Source: Bacteroidota bacterium
Lineage (GTDB): Bacteria; Bacteroidota; Bacteroidia; Bacteroidales; F082
Reading direction: 5' to 3'
Assembly: GCA_024280235.1 (NCBI GenBank)
Contig: JAJRQN010000230.1
Coordinates: 1-48,648 of the forward strand
DNA: 48,648 nucleotides
The stretch's first letter is position 1, and the number at the start of each line of letters is the position of its first letter. The notes below the pieces were generated by a model that saw nothing but the letters and a program-made list of their open reading frames with translations, was not told the origin of the DNA and searched no databases. Made by a program: the position numbers and the translations under genes. Shown here piece after piece: positions 23,392 to 48,524 of the stretch.

Positions 23392-23655
23392 GCAGAAAGT
23401 ATCCCACCCTGTTTTTACATCTAAACAAATATTTACGTTGCCCGCCCGTTCAGATAACTTCTAAAATCCCAAAACTACCCCACCAGAAATTCCACTTTCG
23501 CAACTATTCTTCCCCCAAAGGGAATTACGAAGACAATGGTGATCTATATATCTATCTGATTATAATATACTTACCTATTATGGCCTGAATATTGATATTT
23601 GATTTATATCAAAACAAAAAATGAAACAAGCAAGCTTCAGACAGATCAGACAGAT

Positions 23656-24933
23656 ATGATAACAAAAGAGACAAACCGCATACAACTTCAAAGCACAGGT
23701 ACCAAAAAGGGATTTGACGACAAAGATAGACTTATCAAGATGCGCAAACAGAACTTGAAAAACTTAAAAACCAACTTAGACATGATAAGCACCGAGATAA
23801 CAAAAACCGAACAACTCAGAACAATGTTTTTATCTAATGTCAGTCACGAAATTAAGACCCCTTTAAATGGTATCCTGAGTGCCACCGTATTGCTTCAGCA
23901 AAAGTCACTGGACAATGAGGTAAAGGAACTTGTGGACACCATTCATAATTCCGGACAATATTTATTCACCTTATTGAATGATGTACTTGATTACTATAAA
24001 GTTATGCTGCACCAGCTAAGTCTCGACCACATAAACTTCGACCTCAGGAATGAGTTGAAGGAGACCTTCCGGATTTTTGAACAGAAAGGAGAAGAAAAAG
24101 GGATAGAAATGCATCTGGAAACAGAAGAAAGCCTTCCACATTATTTAATCGGAGATTCCACCCGGCTGAAACAGATACTCTCCAACCTTCTGGACAACGC
24201 AATAAAGTTTACCCCCTCCAAAGGGAAAGTTTCTTTAAACATCAAGCCTGTTTCCGTTGTTAATGGAATACATGAAATTGAATTTACAGTAAGTGATACC
24301 GGCATTGGCATTGAAGACAAAGATAAAAATGCCATCTGGGAAACCTTCAGTATGGCAGACATGTCATTGACACGTTCAAATAACGGAACAGGACTTGGGT
24401 TGGCATTGTCGCGCCAGTTATGCCAATTGTTGGGTGGGAAAATGTATCTGAAGACACAATCAGGGCAAGGCAGCACATTCATATTTACTGTAAAAATGGA
24501 AGCAGGAATCCCTCCGGAACAAAACAATAGTAAGCAACGGGGAATACTGGATATTTTACTGGTTGAAGATAACATCATAAACCAAAAACTTACCCAGAAG
24601 ATATTAATAGACCAAGGATTTCACGTAGATGTGGCCGACAATGGAAAGATGGCAGTTAAGAAATTTAAAGGCCATCGTTACGACTTGATATTTATGGATA
24701 TTCAAATGCCTGTAATGGACGGTCTGGAAGCCACAAGACAAATAAGGAAATTTGAAAATACAAAGCAATTTCAGCCTGACGAAAGAGTAAAAATCATTGC
24801 TTTAACAGCAAATTCACAGCAACAAGACAAAGAAAACTGTCTTGCCGCCGGTATGGACGACTACATTAACAAACCTTTCAATGTAAAAAAGTTTCCACTT
24901 ATTTTAAGTAACCTTCAAGCCCACCACAGTTAA
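23656..24933 (+). CDS. soluble hybrid sensor histidine kinase / response regulator without a recognisable sensor domain
   Basis: H-box FLSNVSHEIKTPLNGIL; N box LSNLLDNAIKFTP; DTGIGI; GTGLGLALSRQ; C-terminal receiver DILLVEDN...YDLIFMDIQMPVMDGLEA...ALTAN...DDYINKPF. All key residues intact. Confidence 0.92.
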   Translation: MITKETNRIQLQSTGTKKGFDDKDRLIKMRKQNLKNLKTNLDMISTEITKTEQLRTMFLSNVSHEIKTPLNGILSATVLLQQKSLDNEVKELVDTIHNSGQYLFTLLNDVLDYYKVMLHQLSLDHINFDLRNELKETFRIFEQKGEEKGIEMHLETEESLPHYLIGDSTRLKQILSNLLDNAIKFTPSKGKVSLNIKPVSVVNGIHEIEFTVSDTGIGIEDKDKNAIWETFSMADMSLTRSNNGTGLGLALSRQLCQLLGGKMYLKTQSGQGSTFIFTVKMEAGIPPEQNNSKQRGILDILLVEDNIINQKLTQKILIDQGFHVDVADNGKMAVKKFKGHRYDLIFMDIQMPVMDGLEATRQIRKFENTKQFQPDERVKIIALTANSQQQDKENCLAAGMDDYINKPFNVKKFPLILSNLQAHHS

Positions 24934-26222: not shown

Positions 26223-26268
26223 CTTTTAAATGGTATAAATTAGTTTGTCAAATCAACATTATTCCGTT

Positions 26269-26646
26269 ATGAAAAAGAAAATACTTATTATTGACGATGA
26301 GTTGTCCATACGTATGTTACTGGAGAACTTTTTGAGCAAGACATATGACGTTGTTACCAAGGTAGATGGATTGGAAGTAATGAAATATCTTGAAGGAGGA
26401 AATATCCCCGATTTAATTGTTGCTGACATCCAAATGCCAAACCTCAACGGTCAGGAATTATTGGAACAAATAAGAGCAAGTGGTTTCTTCCAGCACATCC
26501 CCATAATCGTCCTCTCCGGCATTGAGAGCAGTCAGGAAAGAATTAAGCTGTTGAAAATGGGTGCTGACGATTTTATCGTAAAGCCATTCAATCCTGAAGA
26601 GTTGTCTATTCGTATTGAAAATATTATCAGCAGAATCAGCAAGTAG
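26269..26646 (+). CDS. stand-alone response regulator receiver protein
   Basis: KKKILIIDDELSIRMLLENFL...PDLIVADIQMPNLNGQELL...IIVLSGIES...GADDFIVKPFNPEEL: canonical acidic pair, Asp, Ser and Lys. Confidence 0.92.
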   Translation: MKKKILIIDDELSIRMLLENFLSKTYDVVTKVDGLEVMKYLEGGNIPDLIVADIQMPNLNGQELLEQIRASGFFQHIPIIVLSGIESSQERIKLLKMGADDFIVKPFNPEELSIRIENIISRISK

Positions 26647-26655
26647 TTTATTTAC

Positions 26656-27861
26656 ATGGCCCCTAATCCTAAGGAAAAGATAAAATTGCTGTATATTGGC
26701 AGCCAATCTGACATTACCGATGCCCTGACAGAAAATCCCGATGATGTAGAGGTTGTTGTCATGGATAATGGATTGCGGGGTATTGACTACCTGCGAAAGA
26801 ATAAAGATGTTGATGCCATTATTTCAGATTATAAACTATCAGGTATTCAGGGAGTAAACCTCGCCACATACATCAAAACCAAACTTGGACTTTCCAAAAT
26901 TCCCTTTGTTTTGCTAGCCTTTGGTGCAGATTCAAATCTAAGAGATACCATTTTGAAAAAGAAAGCAGTGGTTGATGACCTCTATCTTTCCACTCCCAAT
27001 GCTGAAAGTATCCTTACGCGAATTCGTTTTCTGCTCTTTTATTTAAAAGAGATAAATGAAGCGGGATTATCTGAAATAGCGCCCCAAAATGATTATAAGA
27101 TACCAATTATTAAAAGACTTTTTGACATTCTTGTATCAGGGAGTGCCCTTCTCATTCTCTCTCCCGTCTTGCTGCTGGTAGCTCTTGCCATCCGTATTGA
27201 GTCGAAAGGGAGTGTTATTTACAAGTCAAAACGCGTTGGCACAGGCTATAAAATTTTTGATTTTCTAAAATTTCGATCTATGTACACCGGTTCCGATGCA
27301 AAGCTAAAAGAACTGGAACACCTTAATCAGTATGCCAATAATAGTACAGAAGAGACGAGTAGCAGCAGAATTCCACCCTGTCCGAGGTGTGCAAAACTTC
27401 CGAAGGACGAGTATTGTTCACCGATACTCTACATAAAAGGTGAAAAAATTTGTGAGTATTGGTACAATGAATTAAAGAAAAAGGATAAAGCTGCAACATT
27501 TATTAAAATTGAAAATGACCCGCGAATAACAAAAGTGGGAAAATTCATAAGAAATACCAGTATTGATGAACTTCCACAATTAATAAATGTCTTGAAAGGA
27601 GACATGTCAATTGTCGGAAACAGGCCGCTACCTTTGTATGAAGCAGAGCAACTCACCTCTGATGATTGGAGTGCCCGTTTTCTTGCTCCGGCAGGAATTA
27701 CAGGCCTCTGGCAGGTGGAGTTGAGGGGTAAAGGTGGTGTTATGTCTGAGGACGAAAGAAAGGGTTTGGATAATAAATATGCCTACACTTACTCCCTTTG
27801 GGGAGATATTAAACTAATCTTCAGGACAATACCAGCTTTATTTCAAAAAGAAAACGTTTAA
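26656..27861 (+). CDS. polyprenyl-phosphate sugar-1-phosphate transferase with N-terminal pseudo-receiver domain
   Basis: N-terminal REC-like fold (IKLLYIGSQSD...VDAIISDYKLSGIQGVNLATYIK) plus KRLFDILVSGSALLILSPVLLLVALAIRIESKGSVIYKSKRVGTGYKIFDFLKFRSM...DPRITKVGKFIRNTSIDELPQLINVLKGDMSIVGNRPL, canonical for the bacterial sugar transferase family. Confidence 0.92.
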   Translation: MAPNPKEKIKLLYIGSQSDITDALTENPDDVEVVVMDNGLRGIDYLRKNKDVDAIISDYKLSGIQGVNLATYIKTKLGLSKIPFVLLAFGADSNLRDTILKKKAVVDDLYLSTPNAESILTRIRFLLFYLKEINEAGLSEIAPQNDYKIPIIKRLFDILVSGSALLILSPVLLLVALAIRIESKGSVIYKSKRVGTGYKIFDFLKFRSMYTGSDAKLKELEHLNQYANNSTEETSSSRIPPCPRCAKLPKDEYCSPILYIKGEKICEYWYNELKKKDKAATFIKIENDPRITKVGKFIRNTSIDELPQLINVLKGDMSIVGNRPLPLYEAEQLTSDDWSARFLAPAGITGLWQVELRGKGGVMSEDERKGLDNKYAYTYSLWGDIKLIFRTIPALFQKENV

Positions 27862-35630: not shown

Positions 35631-36853
35631 ATGGAAATTTTAAAAATTATACTCCTTGTCATCGAAACCATACTTTTTATCTACCTGTTTCTGGCGACTT
35701 TTTATATTTTTATCTATTCGGTAGCCGGACTTTTCTACAGGCAAAAACAAAAAGAGAATGTATCCAAAATAAGAAAGTTTGCCGTACTGATTCCGGGATA
35801 CAAGGAAGATGCAGTAATTGTTCATGTAGCAAAAGAAGCAACCTTACAGAATTATCCCAAAGATAAATTTGATGTTATCGTTATTGCTGATACTTTCAGG
35901 AAAGAGACGCTGGATGCACTTCACAAATTACCAATACAAGTCGTAGAGGTGGTTTTTGAAGTTAGCAAGAAGTCAAAAGCACTAAATAAATGTATGGAAA
36001 TCATTGGCAATGATTATGATGTGGCTTTCATCCTTGATGCGGATAATATTATGAAAAAGGATGTACTGACCAAAGTAAATGCAGCTTTTGACCGTGGCTT
36101 TGATGCGGTGCAGGGACATCGTACAGCCAAAAACCTGAATGCGGCCTTTGCCATCCTCGATGCATTAAGCGAAGAAATAAACAACCACATTTTCCGCAAG
36201 GGACATCGTGTGTTGGGCATATCCTCCGCATTGATAGGCTCCGGAATGGGTCTCGACTACCCGCTATTCAAAAAACAATGGCTACCATTGACTCCGTTGG
36301 TGAAGACAAAGAAGTAGAGTTGAAGATTATTAAAAATGGTTATACAATTGAGTATGTCCACGATGCCATCATTTATGATGAAAAGACTCAGGAATCCGGA
36401 AACTTTGTCAACCAGCGGCGGCGATGGATTGCCGCTCAGTTAGATTATTTCAGGAGTAACTTTTTAGACGGCTTCGCATCCTTAATTACTAAAGGTAACT
36501 TTGATTATTTCGACAAAGTAATACAGATGATACAACCACCGCGAATTTTACTCAGCGGGATATTGTTTTTTCTCAGCCTTTTGTATGGAATCATCTATTT
36601 CCTTCCATACACAGCTCTGAAGCAATACTTTACTCCCGGATTTTATTGGTGGCTGGGGCTATTTGCAGGTACCTCGCTTGCGCTGTTGTTTGCCATCCCA
36701 CGTCGATTTTATAACAAGCAGACTTTTCATGCCTTGCTTTCCCTGCCAAAAGGATTTATCCTTATGTTTATTAGCCTGCTGAAAGTAAAAGGAGCATCCA
36801 AAAAATTTTTACATACCGAACATTCACATTCGGATGAAATAAAACATAACTAG
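35631..36853 (+). pseudogene. membrane glycosyltransferase family 2 (paralogue B), split by a -1 frameshift at an A6 run
   Basis: ORF 35631-36317 (…SSALIGSGMGLDYPLFKK) and ORF 36278-36853 (ATIDSVGEDKEVELKIIKNGYTIEYVHDAIIYDEKTQ…NQRRRWIAAQ) align consecutively to the intact paralogue at 37780-39000. Junction is the A run 36270-36275. Confidence 0.85.
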
Positions 36854-41359: not shown

Positions 41360-41980
41360 ATGGGAATCAAAGAGAAAATAAAATCCAACGAAAAGCTGAA
41401 AAAGCTGGTACTCTGGATGCTTATGCCCCGCAACCAAGCCAGGCCGCGCCTTTGGGTAAAATGGTTCGTAAATCCCATGAAACACACGCGAGGTAAACGA
41501 TCGCTGGTGCGAAGACGTACCCGTATGGATCTTATGCCTTTCAACAATTTTGTGCTTGGCAAAGATTCGACCATCGAAGACTTTTCAACGGTAAACAATG
41601 GAGTGGGCGATGTCATCATCGGCTAGCGTACCCGCATTGGCATGTCCAATGTCCTCATAGGCCCCATAACCATTGGCAATGATGTTATGTTTGCCCAGAA
41701 TGTGGTTTTGTCAGGCCTTAACCACGGCTACGAAGACGTAAACCTGCCACCCAGCTTGCAAAAGGTGGAGACAAAACCCATCATCATTGAAGATCAGGTC
41801 TGGATTGGAGCAAATGCAGTGGTTACGGCAGGCGTTACTGTCGGGAAGCACTCCGTTGTTGCCGCAGGTTGTGTAGTTGTAAAAGATGTTCCTCCTTTTG
41901 CCATTGTAGGTGGAAATCCCGGGAAAATTTTAAAACAATACAACCACGAAACCAAAGCGTGGGAACGGGTAAAAAAATAA
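41360..41980 (+). pseudogene. left-handed beta-helix (hexapeptide) acyltransferase interrupted by an in-frame TAG
   Basis: ORFs 41360-41626 and 41642-41980 are in the same frame, separated by a single TAG at 41624-41626: ...NNFVLGKDSTIEDFSTVNNGVGDVIIG*RTRIGMSNVLIGPITIGNDVMFAQNVVLSG...VWIGANAVVTAGVTVGKHSVVAAGCVVVKDVPPFAIVGGNPGKIL. Confidence 0.88.
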
Positions 41981-42880: not shown

Positions 42881-44065
42881 ATGATGACACTAAAGATTTT
42901 ATTCTGGCTGTTGTTGTTTATCGTTTTCTATGCCTACCTGGGCTATGGGATTCTGCTGTTTGTCCTAATCAAATTAAAGAGATTGTTTTTTAAAAAGAAA
43001 ATCTCCAAAAACATCAAATACGAACCGGAAGTCAGCTTATTTGTTGCAGCATATAACGAAAAGGACTATGTGGCTGCGAAAATTGAAAACTCTTTCAGCC
43101 TGGAATACCCAAAAGAAAAAGTAAGACAGGTTTGGGTTACCGATGGTTCGGATGATGGCACACCCGACCTGCTGAGAAAATACAGCGACAAAGGCGTGGA
43201 GGTTTACCATGAAGACAAAAGAGGAGGCAAAATTGGCGCCATGAACCGTGGAATGCAATTCGTGAAAACTCCAATCGTGATTTTTTCGGATGGCAATACA
43301 ATGTTGGGAAAAGAATCCATTCGACGTATTGTCAATATGTTTGCCGACCCGAAAGTAGGCTGTGTGTCCGGAGAAAAACGTGTCTTTAACAAAGCCTCTG
43401 CTGCCGCCACAGAGGGCATCTATTGGAAGTATGAATCCAAATTAAAAAAATGGGACGCTGAACTTTATTCTGTCGTGGGTGCTGCCGGGGAATTGTTTGC
43501 CATCCGCACCAAACTCTTCAGCCCTGTGGAAAAAGACACACTACTCGACGATTTTATCATCTCTTTGCGGGTAGCTATGGAAGGTTACACCATTCAATAC
43601 GATCCGGAAGCCTACGCTATTGAAAATCCATCAGCTAATGTCAAAGAAGAGCTGAAAAGGAAAGTTCGCATTGCCGCTGGAGGCATTCAAAGTATCATTC
43701 GCCTGAAACCACTACTCAATATCTTCAAATACGGCCTGCTCAGCTTTCAATATATATCTCACCGTGTCCTCCGGTGGACGCTTGCTCCCCTCTCGCTTCC
43801 TTTGATATTTATCTTCAACTTTATCCTTGCATGGCAGGCGGGTTTTGCAAACTTTACCAGTGTTTATACGCTATTGTTTTATGGCGAAATTATCTTTTAT
43901 GCCATGGCCTTACTGGGATGGTATCTCGAAAACAGGAAAATCAAAGTTAAAATCCTCTATGTGCCTTACTATTTTCTTATTATGAATTACGCTGTTTACG
44001 CAGGTATTAAACGTTATTTTAAGGGACAACAAACCGTCAACTGGGAACGTGCCAAACGAGGATAA
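42881..44065 (+). CDS. membrane glycosyltransferase family 2
   Basis: EPEVSLFVAAYNEKDYVAAKIENSFSLEYPKEKVRQVWVTDGSDDGTPDLLRKY...GKIGAMNRGMQF...FSDGNTML; C-terminal TM segments. Confidence 0.9.
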   Translation: MMTLKILFWLLLFIVFYAYLGYGILLFVLIKLKRLFFKKKISKNIKYEPEVSLFVAAYNEKDYVAAKIENSFSLEYPKEKVRQVWVTDGSDDGTPDLLRKYSDKGVEVYHEDKRGGKIGAMNRGMQFVKTPIVIFSDGNTMLGKESIRRIVNMFADPKVGCVSGEKRVFNKASAAATEGIYWKYESKLKKWDAELYSVVGAAGELFAIRTKLFSPVEKDTLLDDFIISLRVAMEGYTIQYDPEAYAIENPSANVKEELKRKVRIAAGGIQSIIRLKPLLNIFKYGLLSFQYISHRVLRWTLAPLSLPLIFIFNFILAWQAGFANFTSVYTLLFYGEIIFYAMALLGWYLENRKIKVKILYVPYYFLIMNYAVYAGIKRYFKGQQTVNWERAKRG

Positions 44066-44069
44066 ACAA

Positions 44070-45734
44070 ATGAAAAAGGGAAATTGGATCATATTACTTT
44101 TTATAATCGTTTTTCTGAGTCTCCGGTTAAATGCACAGAACTGTAGTAAAACCATCGATCCATCAACGCCTTATATCGACTGGGAGAATTCAAACTTTAA
44201 AAATATACAACCCGGTGATACCGTTTGTCTGCAAGCTGGAAACTGGGATTACATTCAGCTTAAAGACTTTCACGGAACAGCTGAAAAGCCTATTGTTTTC
44301 ATTAACAGCGGAGGCACAGTCATAATCAACACCGACCATTTTGTCGGGATAAAGATTGGGAATTGCTCTCACATAGTTTTTACCGGAAATGGGGATGCTC
44401 AGGCAACTTACGGCTTTAGGATTTTGAAAGTATCAAAAGGAGCCGGCATGGGAATTGACGATTATAGCACCGATATTGAAATTGCCCATGTGGAAATATC
44501 GAACACGTTGCTTGGCGGAGTGTATGCCAAAACCGACCCTACCTGTTCCAACTTTGGGGCTACACGCGACAAATTTGTAATGAAGAATTTCTCTTTCCAC
44601 GATAATTATGTGCATGATGTCCCCGAGGAAGGGCTTTACATCGGAAATTCTCATTATGGCGGCCTATATCTGTCGGGATGCGACACCACTGTCTTTCCTC
44701 ACACCATGAAAGGTGTATTTATTTATGATAACCTTGTGGAAAATACCGGCTGGGACGGCATTCAGGTCAGCTCAGCCGATTCCAACTGTCAAATTCACGA
44801 TAACCATATCAATTATGATTCGCAGGCAGGGAGAGCCGACCAAATGTCAGGCATTATTATTGGCGGTGGTAGTGTCTGCAATACATACAACAACACCATT
44901 ACTGATGGAAAAGGCGATGGTATTGATATATTCGGCATGGGTGGTTTTAATGTCTTTAACAACCTGATTGTCAACGCCGGCAAATTTTATCTCCCCAACC
45001 AGCCGAATAAAATGAAACATGGTATATATGTGGGGAGAGCTGTTACTACTACCGATGCCGTTCTCGGTATTTACAACAACACTATTGTAAGTCCGAAGAG
45101 TTTCGGTATGAGCCTGGCAAATAACGATTTGAAGTCTATTCTGGTAAAAGCCAATCTCATTGTAGCCCCAGGGAAATATAACGACATAGGAGACAATGCT
45201 TATATCAACAGCAACAATATGGATCCGGCACATATAGTAAGTAGCCATAACTATACTACAAACGACATCCAACAGGTTCGTTTTCTGCAACCCGATGCCG
45301 CAAATTATGATATACAGCCCTCCTCTCCTGCTGTAAATTATGGTACAGACCTCACAGCAGAAGGAGTTACGTTCGATATTTTAAATCGATCACGTCCATT
45401 TCATGGTTTGTTTTCTGCAGGAGCTTACGAAAGTCACAATCCATCAGTTGGCATCCATTCCCAACCAGCTCTTGATGTGGAGATGTTTAAAATTTATCCG
45501 AATCCTACAGCCAACAATGTTCATTTGCTGATAAAAACGAACCTTAAACAGAATGTCAGTGTTGTTGTAACCGACATGTCAGGCAGGGCAGTTATCAGAA
45601 AGAGGCTTCAATGTATTCCTAATGAAGTCAATACAAGCAGCCTTATTGTCAGACATTTAAAAAGCGGAGAATATCTGGTCATACTTTTCACTTCAAAAGG
45701 TCTCAGTAGCCTTCCTCTGCTTATAAAAAAGTGA
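44070..45734 (+). CDS. right-handed parallel beta-helix protein with T9SS C-terminal sorting domain
   Basis: Signal peptide, beta-helix-like repeats (NNTITDGKGDGIDIFGMGGFNVFNNLIVNAG...GIYNNTIVSPKSFGMSLANNDLKSILVKANLI), C-terminal FKIYPNPTANNVHLLIKTNLKQNVSVVVTDMSGRAV...LKSGEYLVILFT. Confidence 0.88.
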   Translation: MKKGNWIILLFIIVFLSLRLNAQNCSKTIDPSTPYIDWENSNFKNIQPGDTVCLQAGNWDYIQLKDFHGTAEKPIVFINSGGTVIINTDHFVGIKIGNCSHIVFTGNGDAQATYGFRILKVSKGAGMGIDDYSTDIEIAHVEISNTLLGGVYAKTDPTCSNFGATRDKFVMKNFSFHDNYVHDVPEEGLYIGNSHYGGLYLSGCDTTVFPHTMKGVFIYDNLVENTGWDGIQVSSADSNCQIHDNHINYDSQAGRADQMSGIIIGGGSVCNTYNNTITDGKGDGIDIFGMGGFNVFNNLIVNAGKFYLPNQPNKMKHGIYVGRAVTTTDAVLGIYNNTIVSPKSFGMSLANNDLKSILVKANLIVAPGKYNDIGDNAYINSNNMDPAHIVSSHNYTTNDIQQVRFLQPDAANYDIQPSSPAVNYGTDLTAEGVTFDILNRSRPFHGLFSAGAYESHNPSVGIHSQPALDVEMFKIYPNPTANNVHLLIKTNLKQNVSVVVTDMSGRAVIRKRLQCIPNEVNTSSLIVRHLKSGEYLVILFTSKGLSSLPLLIKK

Positions 45735-45738
45735 TATC

Positions 45739-46566
45739 ATGCAAAGTATTAAGAAATATATCCCCCCGATTCCGGGAAGATTACTTAAAAACATCTATCT
45801 GACAATACGCGGGTTATATTATCGCGGAAACCGATATACCTGTCCTGTTTGCGGATATAGTTTTCGGAAAATGCTGCCAGGAGGATTTGATCTTCCTGTA
45901 ATCAAAGAAAAACACATCGTTGGAGCTGGCCGTCGCGACAACGACATATGCCCTTACTGCCAAAGTACCGACCGCGACCGCCTCATCTATCTCTTTCTAA
46001 AATATGAAAAATCATTTTTTGAGCAACATTTCAGCCTGCTTCACATTGCTCCGGAACCTGCTTTACATAAGGTTTTTAGCCATACTAACTCCATCGATTA
46101 TCATCCGGCAACAAAATATTCAGAAGGTTTTTATTACAAAGCAAAAGTTGAAACCGAAGATTTGCTCGACCTGCATTTTGAAGAAGCCTCTTTCGACTGG
46201 GTCATTTGCAACCATGTATTGGAACACATCCCTGATGACAAGCTGGCCATGCATGAAATTTTTCGCGTTCTGAAACCAGGGGGAAAAGCCATTCTACAAG
46301 TACCCATATCTTTTCAACTTGAGAAGACCTTTGAAGACGAAACTGTAACAGCAGAAGCCGACAGAGAAAAATATTTAGGGCAATTTGACCATGTCAGGAT
46401 TTATGGTCGCGACTATCCCGACCGTCTTAAGGATGTAGGTTTTGTCGTTCATGAAGTAAATACCAAACATGACTTTAAACACATTTCTTCCCTGAATAAA
46501 TTCGCTATTAACCCGGATGAAATACTCTTTCTTTGTGATAAACCTTTAAAGAAAAGCAGGCTATGA
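45739..46566 (+). CDS. class I SAM-dependent methyltransferase with N-terminal CxxC/CxxC zinc-ribbon-like segment
   Basis: YTCPVCGYSF...DICPYCQSTDRDR; FDWVICNHVLEHIPDDKLAMHEIFRVLKPGGKAILQVPI. Confidence 0.9.
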   Translation: MQSIKKYIPPIPGRLLKNIYLTIRGLYYRGNRYTCPVCGYSFRKMLPGGFDLPVIKEKHIVGAGRRDNDICPYCQSTDRDRLIYLFLKYEKSFFEQHFSLLHIAPEPALHKVFSHTNSIDYHPATKYSEGFYYKAKVETEDLLDLHFEEASFDWVICNHVLEHIPDDKLAMHEIFRVLKPGGKAILQVPISFQLEKTFEDETVTAEADREKYLGQFDHVRIYGRDYPDRLKDVGFVVHEVNTKHDFKHISSLNKFAINPDEILFLCDKPLKKSRL

Positions 46567-48077
46567 GAAACAGAAAAATCCAAATACTGGTTTTAGTCTT
46601 TCTAATGTTGTCATCTGCACAGCTTTTTGCCAGCGGAAACAATGTTGCCACAACAACACCTATTTGGCTTTATCTTTTAGCCGCTCTTCTTTTAATTCTT
46701 ATTGTTATAGCTTTAATCTTAATTAATAAAAAGAGGCGAAATGCGCTCCAACTTGAAAAGTTACAAGCCTCCCTAAAAACCTTAAATCAGGAGTTGCTTT
46801 CACTGAGAGAAAACAAAAAAGAGATTATCCTACAACGAATTGAAGCACTCAGGGACGAAATAAAAGCAAGGGAGCACAACCTCGAAGCCATGAAAAAGAC
46901 ACTGAAAGCATCAAAGCTTTCCGCCAGTCGAAACTCTTTCCTGCTAACAAAAATCAGCCAAACCCTTCGTACAAACCTTAACGATATACTCGGATTCTCA
47001 CTTTTGCTGGAAAACGAGTTTGCTCTGAGCGAGGAAGAAGAACTTTTTGAATACAATGAAAATATCAGAAAAAGCGGTGCATCCCTTATGCATCTGCTGA
47101 ACAATATTATCGACATTAGCAAAATTGAATCCAAAAGTTTTCGTCTAAAAGAAGAAGCATGTCATTTAGCAGACATCAGCGAGGAACTCATCAGACAATA
47201 CCAACCTGTTGCAACCCTAAAAGGTATTAAAATTGTCTTTCAGGACAACAAAGTTCCACCGTTTGCCGCCGACTGTGAAACCGTTCGACACATCCTCTCC
47301 AACCTGCTGGACAATTCCGTTAATTACACAGAGAAAGGATTTATAAAAATATCACAAACAGTTAAAGACGAGATGGTTGTGTGGACTATTAAAGATACAG
47401 GCATAGGTATTGACAAAGCCTATCTCCCCGATATTTTTGAGCCTTTCCGCCAGCAGAGCCTGGGATATAGTAAATTGAGCAATCAGGGTGCAGGGCTTGG
47501 ACTTCCCCTGATAAAAAATATGCTGGAACTTATGAACGGGAAGATTAATATCGAATCAGAAAAGGTTAAAGGCACGACGGTTACCGTTTATCTGCCTTTC
47601 ATGGCTTTTTCTGAACAAAGCACACCCACACCTAAAGAAACAGCCACACCAAAAAAGAAGAATCGGGCACCCCAAAAAGCAACACTAAAAAGGGAAAACA
47701 TCAAAATTCTTATTCTTGACGAAGACAGACTTGGAAATATGCTAATTAAAAAAATTCTTCCGAAAGTCAGGATAGAATCATACAGTAAAGAGACAACCCC
47801 TGAGATTTGGATAAATCAACAACTTGTTAATCAATCACAACCGGACATTCTAATGGTTGAACTGGACTTTACAGGAAATAAAAAGGGAACTGCAGTACTG
47901 CAAAAGTTGAAAAAGAAATATCCGGAGCTGGAACGTGTACCAACCATTGCGCTGTCTGCCTACCCCGATTCAAATGGTTATGAAAAAGCTATTCAGCAAG
48001 GTTTTACAGCATATTTACAGAAACCATTTCACAAAAAGGATTTAATTAATCTGCTAAACCAACTTATCTCTACATAA
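46563..48077 (+). CDS. transmembrane hybrid histidine kinase-like protein (phosphoacceptor residues substituted)
   Basis: Signal/TM segments at the N-terminus, DHp-like SQTLRTNLNDILGFS, HATPase boxes ILSNLLDNSVNYT / DTGIGIDKAYLPDIFEPF / GAGLGLPLIKNML, C-terminal REC-like ILILDEDR...ILMVELDF...ALSAY...YLQKPF. Confidence 0.9.
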   Translation: MRNRKIQILVLVFLMLSSAQLFASGNNVATTTPIWLYLLAALLLILIVIALILINKKRRNALQLEKLQASLKTLNQELLSLRENKKEIILQRIEALRDEIKAREHNLEAMKKTLKASKLSASRNSFLLTKISQTLRTNLNDILGFSLLLENEFALSEEEELFEYNENIRKSGASLMHLLNNIIDISKIESKSFRLKEEACHLADISEELIRQYQPVATLKGIKIVFQDNKVPPFAADCETVRHILSNLLDNSVNYTEKGFIKISQTVKDEMVVWTIKDTGIGIDKAYLPDIFEPFRQQSLGYSKLSNQGAGLGLPLIKNMLELMNGKINIESEKVKGTTVTVYLPFMAFSEQSTPTPKETATPKKKNRAPQKATLKRENIKILILDEDRLGNMLIKKILPKVRIESYSKETTPEIWINQQLVNQSQPDILMVELDFTGNKKGTAVLQKLKKKYPELERVPTIALSAYPDSNGYEKAIQQGFTAYLQKPFHKKDLINLLNQLIST

Positions 48078-48116: not shown

Positions 48117-48524
48117 ATGTCCAGAAATTTCGAAGATTCTTTAAATATTTTGGTCGTTGAAGATAACGAGTTGAATGCAAAATTTGCATCCGCAATTTTG
48201 AAACGACTAAATTTTAACATTGATTTTGCTGTCGATGGTAAAATTGGTGTGGAGAAATTTTTAGAAAATAACTACGATATCATCCTTATGGACATTCAGA
48301 TGCCTGTAATGAACGGACTGGAAGCAACTGCTAAAATTAGAAAACTTGAACAACAACTGGAAGTTGAACATCATGTTCCCATAATTGCTATTACCGCCTT
48401 TGCTTTTGAACACGACAAACAGAATTGTTTGGATGCCGGTATGGATGATTACCTTACAAAACCGTATCGGCCAAAAGATATGATAGAAATCATCAAGAAT
48501 TATTTTCCTGAAAAGCAGGCATAG
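48117..48524 (+). CDS. stand-alone response regulator receiver protein
   Basis: LNILVVEDNELNAKFASAIL...YDIILMDIQMPVMNGLEATAKI...IIAITAFAF...GMDDYLTKPYRPKDM: canonical residues present. Confidence 0.92.
   Translation: MSRNFEDSLNILVVEDNELNAKFASAILKRLNFNIDFAVDGKIGVEKFLENNYDIILMDIQMPVMNGLEATAKIRKLEQQLEVEHHVPIIAITAFAFEHDKQNCLDAGMDDYLTKPYRPKDMIEIIKNYFPEKQA

Follow-up and report, generated by a model that had tools for sequence, protein, structure and literature searches.

What would a histidine kinase be used for once it can no longer phosphorylate, and why would exopolysaccharide (EPS) control favor such a protein? The question is raised by the window, a 48,648-nucleotide stretch of contig JAJRQN010000230.1 from a member of the Bacteroidota (family F082, GenBank assembly GCA_024280235.1). 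It carries a large EPS cluster with a priming transferase, export and chain-length genes, a Wzy-type polymerase, many glycosyltransferases, a beta-helix protein and a methyltransferase, and the cluster ends with a pseudo-hybrid histidine kinase (pHK; Table 1).

A pseudo-hybrid histidine kinase ends an EPS cluster

The pHK gene encodes 504 aa, containing TKISQTLRTNLNDILGFS, and its ATG overlaps the methyltransferase stop codon by 4 bases (ATGA, 46563-46566). This overlap had been reported in the first-pass annotation as support for co-translation with the EPS operon, which we also consider probable. The protein comprises a signal/transmembrane region, a coiled coil, DHp and CA domains and a degenerate receiver, and it has no sensor domain. 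Pfam scored HATPase_c at 89.8 bits and Response_reg at 38.9 bits, and the HisKA score of 27.5 bits barely cleared the cut-off of 26.9 bits. DHp and CA are both present and the N, G1 and G2 boxes can be recognized, which identifies a HisKA/HATPase_c fold by descent. In an AlphaFold model built from a 49-sequence alignment (mean pLDDT 87), a signal-like helix and one transmembrane helix are predicted to precede a long coiled coil that runs into DHp, and the CA and receiver domains are well folded. The solved folds nearest to this model in a structure search were ShkA, GacS, HK853 and RetS, with DivL lower.

Table 1. Features of the EPS locus and of pHK, with positions in the window
Feature	Position	Strand	Basis and remarks
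W2, soluble hybrid histidine kinase (intact SHEIKTP, MDIQMP)	23599..24933	+	Pfam; head of EPS cluster; candidate phosphodonor
Second single-domain response regulator, canonical	26245..26646	+	Pfam; upstream of priming transferase
Priming sugar transferase; its N-terminal receiver-like domain has no acidic pair	26656..27861	+	Pfam
Beta-helix protein with Por secretion tail	44049..45734	+	Pfam; conserved upstream neighbor
Methyltransferase just upstream of pHK, synteny anchor	45739..46566	+	Pfam, synteny; 4-base overlap with pHK start
pHK (pseudo-hybrid histidine kinase)	46563..48077	+	Pfam, translation, AlphaFold
pHK transmembrane helix, residues 34-58	46662..46736	+	AlphaFold helix 34-83 and hydrophobic sequence; then coiled coil into DHp
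pHK DHp domain, residues 118-190	46914..47132	+	Alignment, dN versus G011
Q133, codon CAA, phospho-His position	46959..46961	+	Translation, genus alignment
T134, replacing catalytic Glu	46962..46964	+	Genus alignment; Glu role from PMC3510030
T137 (phosphatase-type Thr) and N138 (Pro to Asn)	46971..46976	+	Genus alignment
pHK CA (ATP-binding) domain, residues 235-350	47265..47612	+	Pfam, alignment, AlphaFold
pHK degenerate receiver, residues 380-502	47700..48068	+	Pfam, alignment
E433, codon GAA, receiver phospho-Asp position	47859..47861	+	Translation, genus alignment
Single-domain response regulator, canonical (VEDN, MDIQMP, KPY)	48117..48524	+	Pfam; likely docking partner of pHK

Translation confirmed the changes initially read from the DNA, namely Gln at the phospho-His position, Glu to Thr and Pro to Asn in the H box, and Glu433 in the receiver. 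The N (N247, D250, N251), G1 (D278, G280, G282) and G2 (G309, G311, G313) boxes are intact and the receiver retains S465 and K487, again as first described; its acidic pair is E387-D388. Sequencing error was rejected as a cause, as position 133 is also non-His in G011, the closest relative, where it is encoded by AAT (Asn), and position 433 is again GAA (Glu).

Elsewhere in the cluster, the priming transferase has a receiver-like domain that lacks the acidic pair and is conserved across Bacteroidales relatives, a hint that EPS initiation may be controlled post-translationally. A glycosyltransferase (35631-36853) is split into two open reading frames in different frames and is a single 407-aa frame in relatives; the split reflects a frameshift that is either genuine or an artifact of assembly. 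A hexapeptide acyltransferase (41360-41980) has an in-frame TAG near 41626, and is 206 aa long and 90% identical in relatives.

The altered H box is shared across the genus

Orthologs were compared between the window and eight further genomes of the genus (n = 9); nearly all genomes compared here are drafts or metagenome assemblies. The gene order methyltransferase, pHK, canonical regulator lies behind exopolysaccharide genes in 9/9 genomes (across two contigs in G011), and the downstream regulator, 61-77% identical within the genus, has its receiver residues in place. Position 133 reads Q/N/N/H/H/Y/H/S/Y (window, G004, G011, G008, G001, G007, G009, G010 and G006, respectively). The residue that follows is T/T/T/T/A/T/S/S/T across the genus, so that the catalytic Glu is absent from all nine, and Pro138 is Asn in every ortholog. 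Residues R136, T137, N138, L139 and N140 are invariant. The lesion common to the genus thus consists of a missing Glu after the His position together with the change of Pro138 to Asn, with the His position itself free to drift, a drift that presumably began after the Glu had been lost. The first-pass annotation had proposed checking whether Gln133 and Glu433 are conserved among orthologs. The altered H box is genus-wide, but these two residues are not conserved, given that three of nine copies still have His and position 433 varies. Those three copies go part of the way toward the intact orthologs that, according to the first-pass annotation, would point to isolate-specific decay, but all of them lack the catalytic Glu. 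Such decay was rejected, as the altered H box is common to the genus and G011 agrees.

CrdS and other HisKA kinases need the Glu after the His to act as kinases, whereas their phosphatase activity does not depend on it, and replacing this Glu in CrdS by Asp, Gln, Gly or Ala abolishes kinase activity in every case (PMC3510030). As Glu is lost in 9/9, none of the nine proteins is predicted to have kinase activity, not even the three with His, although residual kinase activity is possible in those three. The window pHK, with Gln133 for the phosphorylatable His and Thr134 for the acidic residue that should follow it, is predicted to be unable to autophosphorylate. Could it still be a working kinase in which an atypical residue accepts the phosphate or another one acts as the base? 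Its intact ATP boxes and the His kept in three orthologs would allow this, but we consider it improbable given the missing Glu, an acceptor position that holds Q, N, H, Y or S, and the lack of any other conserved DHp His. An alternative alignment with a functional His elsewhere in the DHp helix had been raised as a refutation, but none was found: the candidate, H178 in helix 2, was rejected as it is Tyr in two orthologs and is also present in canonical homologs.

The DHp-CA core is conserved and the receiver is not

Conservation within the genus is highest in DHp (mean column entropy 0.72, 28/73 columns invariant), followed by CA (1.0, 35/116) and then the receiver (1.72, 8/123), which is the fastest-changing folded domain. 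Compared with G011, dN is about 0.05 for DHp, 0.18 for CA and 0.26 for the receiver, and 0.12 and 0.18 for the neighboring single-domain response regulator and methyltransferase; dS in this comparison is at or close to saturation. The ratio of receiver to CA identity is 0.52 in the genus versus 0.90-1.01 in canonical sister clades. Together, the low DHp dN and this ratio indicate that the DHp-CA core has been kept while the acceptor His and the receiver have been released. Within DHp, 14 of the 22 helix 1 positions from 136 to 157 are invariant; the matching part of helix 1 in HK853 docks regulators. The ATP-site residues N251, D278, G280 and G282 are invariant across the genus. Combined with the loss of Glu, this supports the earlier suggestion of a non-phosphorylating scaffold that probably binds ATP.

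The same data bear on two further explanations. If pHK were a decaying remnant, its kinase and receiver would be drifting after loss of function. The drift of the receiver and His position and the missing sensor region agree with this, as do the decay of the W2 kinase of the same cluster in two genomes (G009 and G010) and the loss of both His and N box from the copy in another genus (g11). Against it, the frame is open and identically placed in 9/9 genomes with no frameshift or gene loss seen, DHp dN is very low relative to saturated dS, and key ATP-site residues do not vary. The core is kept better than its enzymatic neighbors, which largely refutes drift, and we regard a remnant as very unlikely. 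Asp-to-Glu substitutions activate some receivers, and Glu433, common to the window and G011, had been proposed to mimic phospho-Asp and lock the output constitutively on. The receiver does not look functional, however, as position 433 reads E/D/E/E/N/D/D/E/D in the nine genomes (Asp in 4/9 and Asn in 1/9), and neither the first residue of the acidic pair nor the surrounding loop is conserved. The proposal found no support in this fastest-changing domain, and is the least probable of the explanations considered.

Phospho-His loss recurs in an EPS-locus kinase family

We use HK1 to denote the EPS-locus kinase encoded right after the methyltransferase, with DHp-CA-REC architecture. The methyltransferase was used as the anchor of a synteny survey of 393 order-level and 149 family-level genomes, from which 80 loci were fetched. 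Where a close methyltransferase was present, the next gene was nearly always an HK1, and pHK belongs to this family by gene position and architecture. HK1 is followed by a single-domain regulator in most of the window's family, or by a soluble hybrid kinase of ~410 aa (HK2) in other families. Canonical EPS-locus hybrid kinases of other Bacteroidales (e.g., loci L201 and L167) are direct relatives of pHK, with the same gene position and a homologous DHp-CA-REC core, but their H box reads SHEIRTP, their receiver is intact and their N-terminal sensor region is longer. This longer region, also found in HK1 of canonical sister genera and made up of TPRs in L201 (another family), is absent from the window genus and some short copies elsewhere.

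The His is absent from 18/73 syntenic HK1 copies. These include 6/9 in the window genus, and copies with Asn in genus g10 (SNEIRNPL), Ser in family f101, Arg in f100 and Gln in f84, where the altered copy stands alongside a tandem intact one. In genus g11 (L159-L162), Phe replaces His and the N box is lost while the receiver is canonical, the reverse of the window genus. A single-sequence scan of contigs gave no matches, and an alignment-based pattern scan added six more Ser copies. Lesions are of three types: those affecting the His alone, those affecting Glu and Pro while the His drifts, and those affecting both the His and the ATP site. A tree of the 84 HK1 sequences was built without the H-box columns. 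In it, the His-less groups were clades with good support or, in one case, a single tip, and at least eight changes between His and non-His were required. The HK1 phospho-His has been lost in at least six lineages. Pseudo-histidine kinases, estimated at ~1% of all histidine kinases (PMC5361649), are a known kind of protein to which pHK belongs; their recurrence at one conserved EPS locus is unusual, and our literature search for EPS-locus pseudo-histidine kinases in Bacteroidetes returned nothing relevant.

In the genome of the window, a family search showed that the His is absent from 3/27 alignable HisKA kinases, pHK included. A second pseudo-hybrid kinase, at a different locus and common to several genomes of the genus, carries Phe in place of the phospho-His (ANLGFDVRTPLSG), and its receiver motif is canonical (L279, L308 [G000:C213], L309, L313, L025 and L026). 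A third HisKA-like kinase of the same genome (L271, G000:C208) has Asn (VTNEIINPF).

The kinase part of HK2, the gene after HK1 (L201-L226), also degenerates in about half of the copies: the H box is altered in 10/18 and the His is gone in 7, with a canonical receiver in all. A sigma-54 regulator was rejected as the identity of the gene after HK1 in other families, as its match, the window frame 23599-24933, is a hybrid kinase by Pfam. In a tree, regulators of genus g15 nested with an HK2 receiver (97/83), with deeper forks unsettled on 140 columns, which weakly suggests that the regulator next to pHK is a leftover HK2 receiver.

A candidate replacement kinase at the cluster head

The soluble hybrid kinase W2 is encoded just upstream of the cluster, at the end that carries the priming transferase. 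It was found at the cluster head in 10/10 genomes of the genus examined (in one of them a contig end truncates the gene), and in none of seven sister-genus genomes examined was it adjacent to the cluster head. This distribution fits a kinase swap, in which gain of W2 and loss of HK1 activity count as one correlated event (n = 1). W2 is intact in the window, G011, G004, G006 and G007, and its His is kept in G008 and G001. In G009 (L241:12826-13965) it is decayed, and in G010 (L242:12741-13481) the ATPase domain is lost with the receiver intact. With its catalytic domain degraded or missing in these two genomes, phosphate there must come from another kinase, which weakens the notion that a replacement kinase explains everything.

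What pHK may do at the EPS locus

The best-studied protein with a comparable lesion is DivL of Caulobacter crescentus (Tyr550; PDB 4q20), which has no kinase or phosphatase activity and instead binds the phosphorylated single-domain regulator DivK and relays the signal (PMC4211667, PMC5361649). Like pHK, DivL has a histidine kinase fold without the phospho-His; two genus orthologs have the same Tyr at this position. A canonical single-domain regulator, to which pHK may dock, is encoded next to it in 9/9 genomes. DivL and pHK differ in that DivL has PAS sensors and ends with its kinase module while pHK lacks a sensor and carries a degenerate receiver, in that the Tyr is conserved in most DivL homologs while the pHK position drifts, and in that DivL binds ATP weakly while the ATP site of pHK looks intact. 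In addition, a PDB sequence search with pHK scored DivL (51.7 bits) far below HK853 (about 91 bits). Given this rank, as well as Gln in place of Tyr and the lack of PAS domains, we consider pHK an analog and not an ortholog of DivL.

On this basis, we cautiously favor a model in which the DHp-CA module of pHK does not phosphorylate but serves to dock the adjacent regulator, acting in a DivL-like manner or as a phosphatase, while another kinase phosphorylates that regulator and EPS output is set accordingly. The model draws on the loss of Glu and Pro in 9/9 orthologs, the lowest dN in DHp, the invariant docking positions, the gene order, W2 and the DivL precedent. pHK descends from a membrane hybrid kinase, HK1, conserved at the EPS locus across Bacteroidales. 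In the window genus, HK1 is without the long N-terminal sensor region of its canonical sisters, has lost its catalytic Glu and Pro and tolerates other residues in place of the His itself, but has kept a dimerizing, ATP-binding DHp-CA core, best conserved in its regulator-docking half. The membrane-anchored pHK may then bind the adjacent single-domain regulator and either sense its phosphorylated form, as DivL does with DivK, or dephosphorylate it. The phosphate would be supplied by another kinase, with W2 the best candidate, and the EPS output would be set thereby. Judged from sequence, DivL-like docking is the most likely output, phosphatase activity comes next and a heterodimer with an active kinase third.

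The phosphatase branch of this model can also be stated on its own: pHK would bind ATP and dephosphorylate the neighboring regulator, serving as an off switch against W2 or acetyl phosphate. In CrdS and related HisKA kinases, the Thr/Asn four residues past the His serves the phosphatase reaction and is dispensable for the kinase reaction; the CrdS Glu mutant was a fully active phosphatase, and the His-to-Ala mutant retained most of this activity (half-life 2.6 versus 0.7 min) (PMC3510030). This Thr is kept in 9/9 orthologs of pHK (Thr137), and the His-less lineages g10, the Ser clade, f84 and f100 keep Glu, Thr/Asn and Pro. However, Pro138 is Asn in pHK, and in CrdS a Pro-to-Ala change at the equivalent position weakened both activities, phosphatase strongly (PMC3510030), which argues somewhat against this role. 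Moreover, PleC needs its His for phosphatase activity, and DivL, the best-studied case, has none (PMC4211667). A phosphatase acting in this way alone is possible but rather doubtful.

Another possibility is that the pHK DHp pairs with that of an active kinase, W2 or other, to dampen or redirect it. RetS of Pseudomonas aeruginosa (PDB 6dk7, 7n0e) shares the hybrid-kinase fold, with TM-scores by target reaching 0.81, and both RetS and the RetS-GacS complex are among the nearest folds. RetS regulates exopolysaccharide and modulates another kinase, GacS. pHK lacks a RetS-type sensor, however, and a GacS-like partner for it is hypothetical. A further precedent is a ChrS variant of Corynebacterium glutamicum, a dead histidine kinase that shapes signaling with phosphate from a partner kinase, HrrS, via heterodimers (PMC9491836). 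The ChrS lesion is in CA and arose in the laboratory, whereas pHK keeps CA, has lost the H box and occurs in nature in many species. The strong conservation of DHp and the encoding of W2 in the same cluster would suit pairing, but the kinase cores of pHK and W2 are far apart, and helix 1 conservation peaks in the regulator-docking half. We therefore regard a heterodimer as unlikely and return to the docking of the adjacent regulator as the preferred model.

More tentatively, HK1 may repeatedly have been turned into a kinase-dead reader of regulators across Bacteroidales, with the signal reversed to run from regulator to pseudo-kinase to EPS machinery, and with a replacement kinase recruited in the window genus. 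If so, pseudo-histidine kinases would be a recurrent evolutionary outcome and not rare one-offs. Very few of them have been studied, and the HK1 series offers intact relatives for comparison. It thus constitutes a natural series for addressing what a histidine kinase is used for once it is unable to phosphorylate, and why EPS control favors this.
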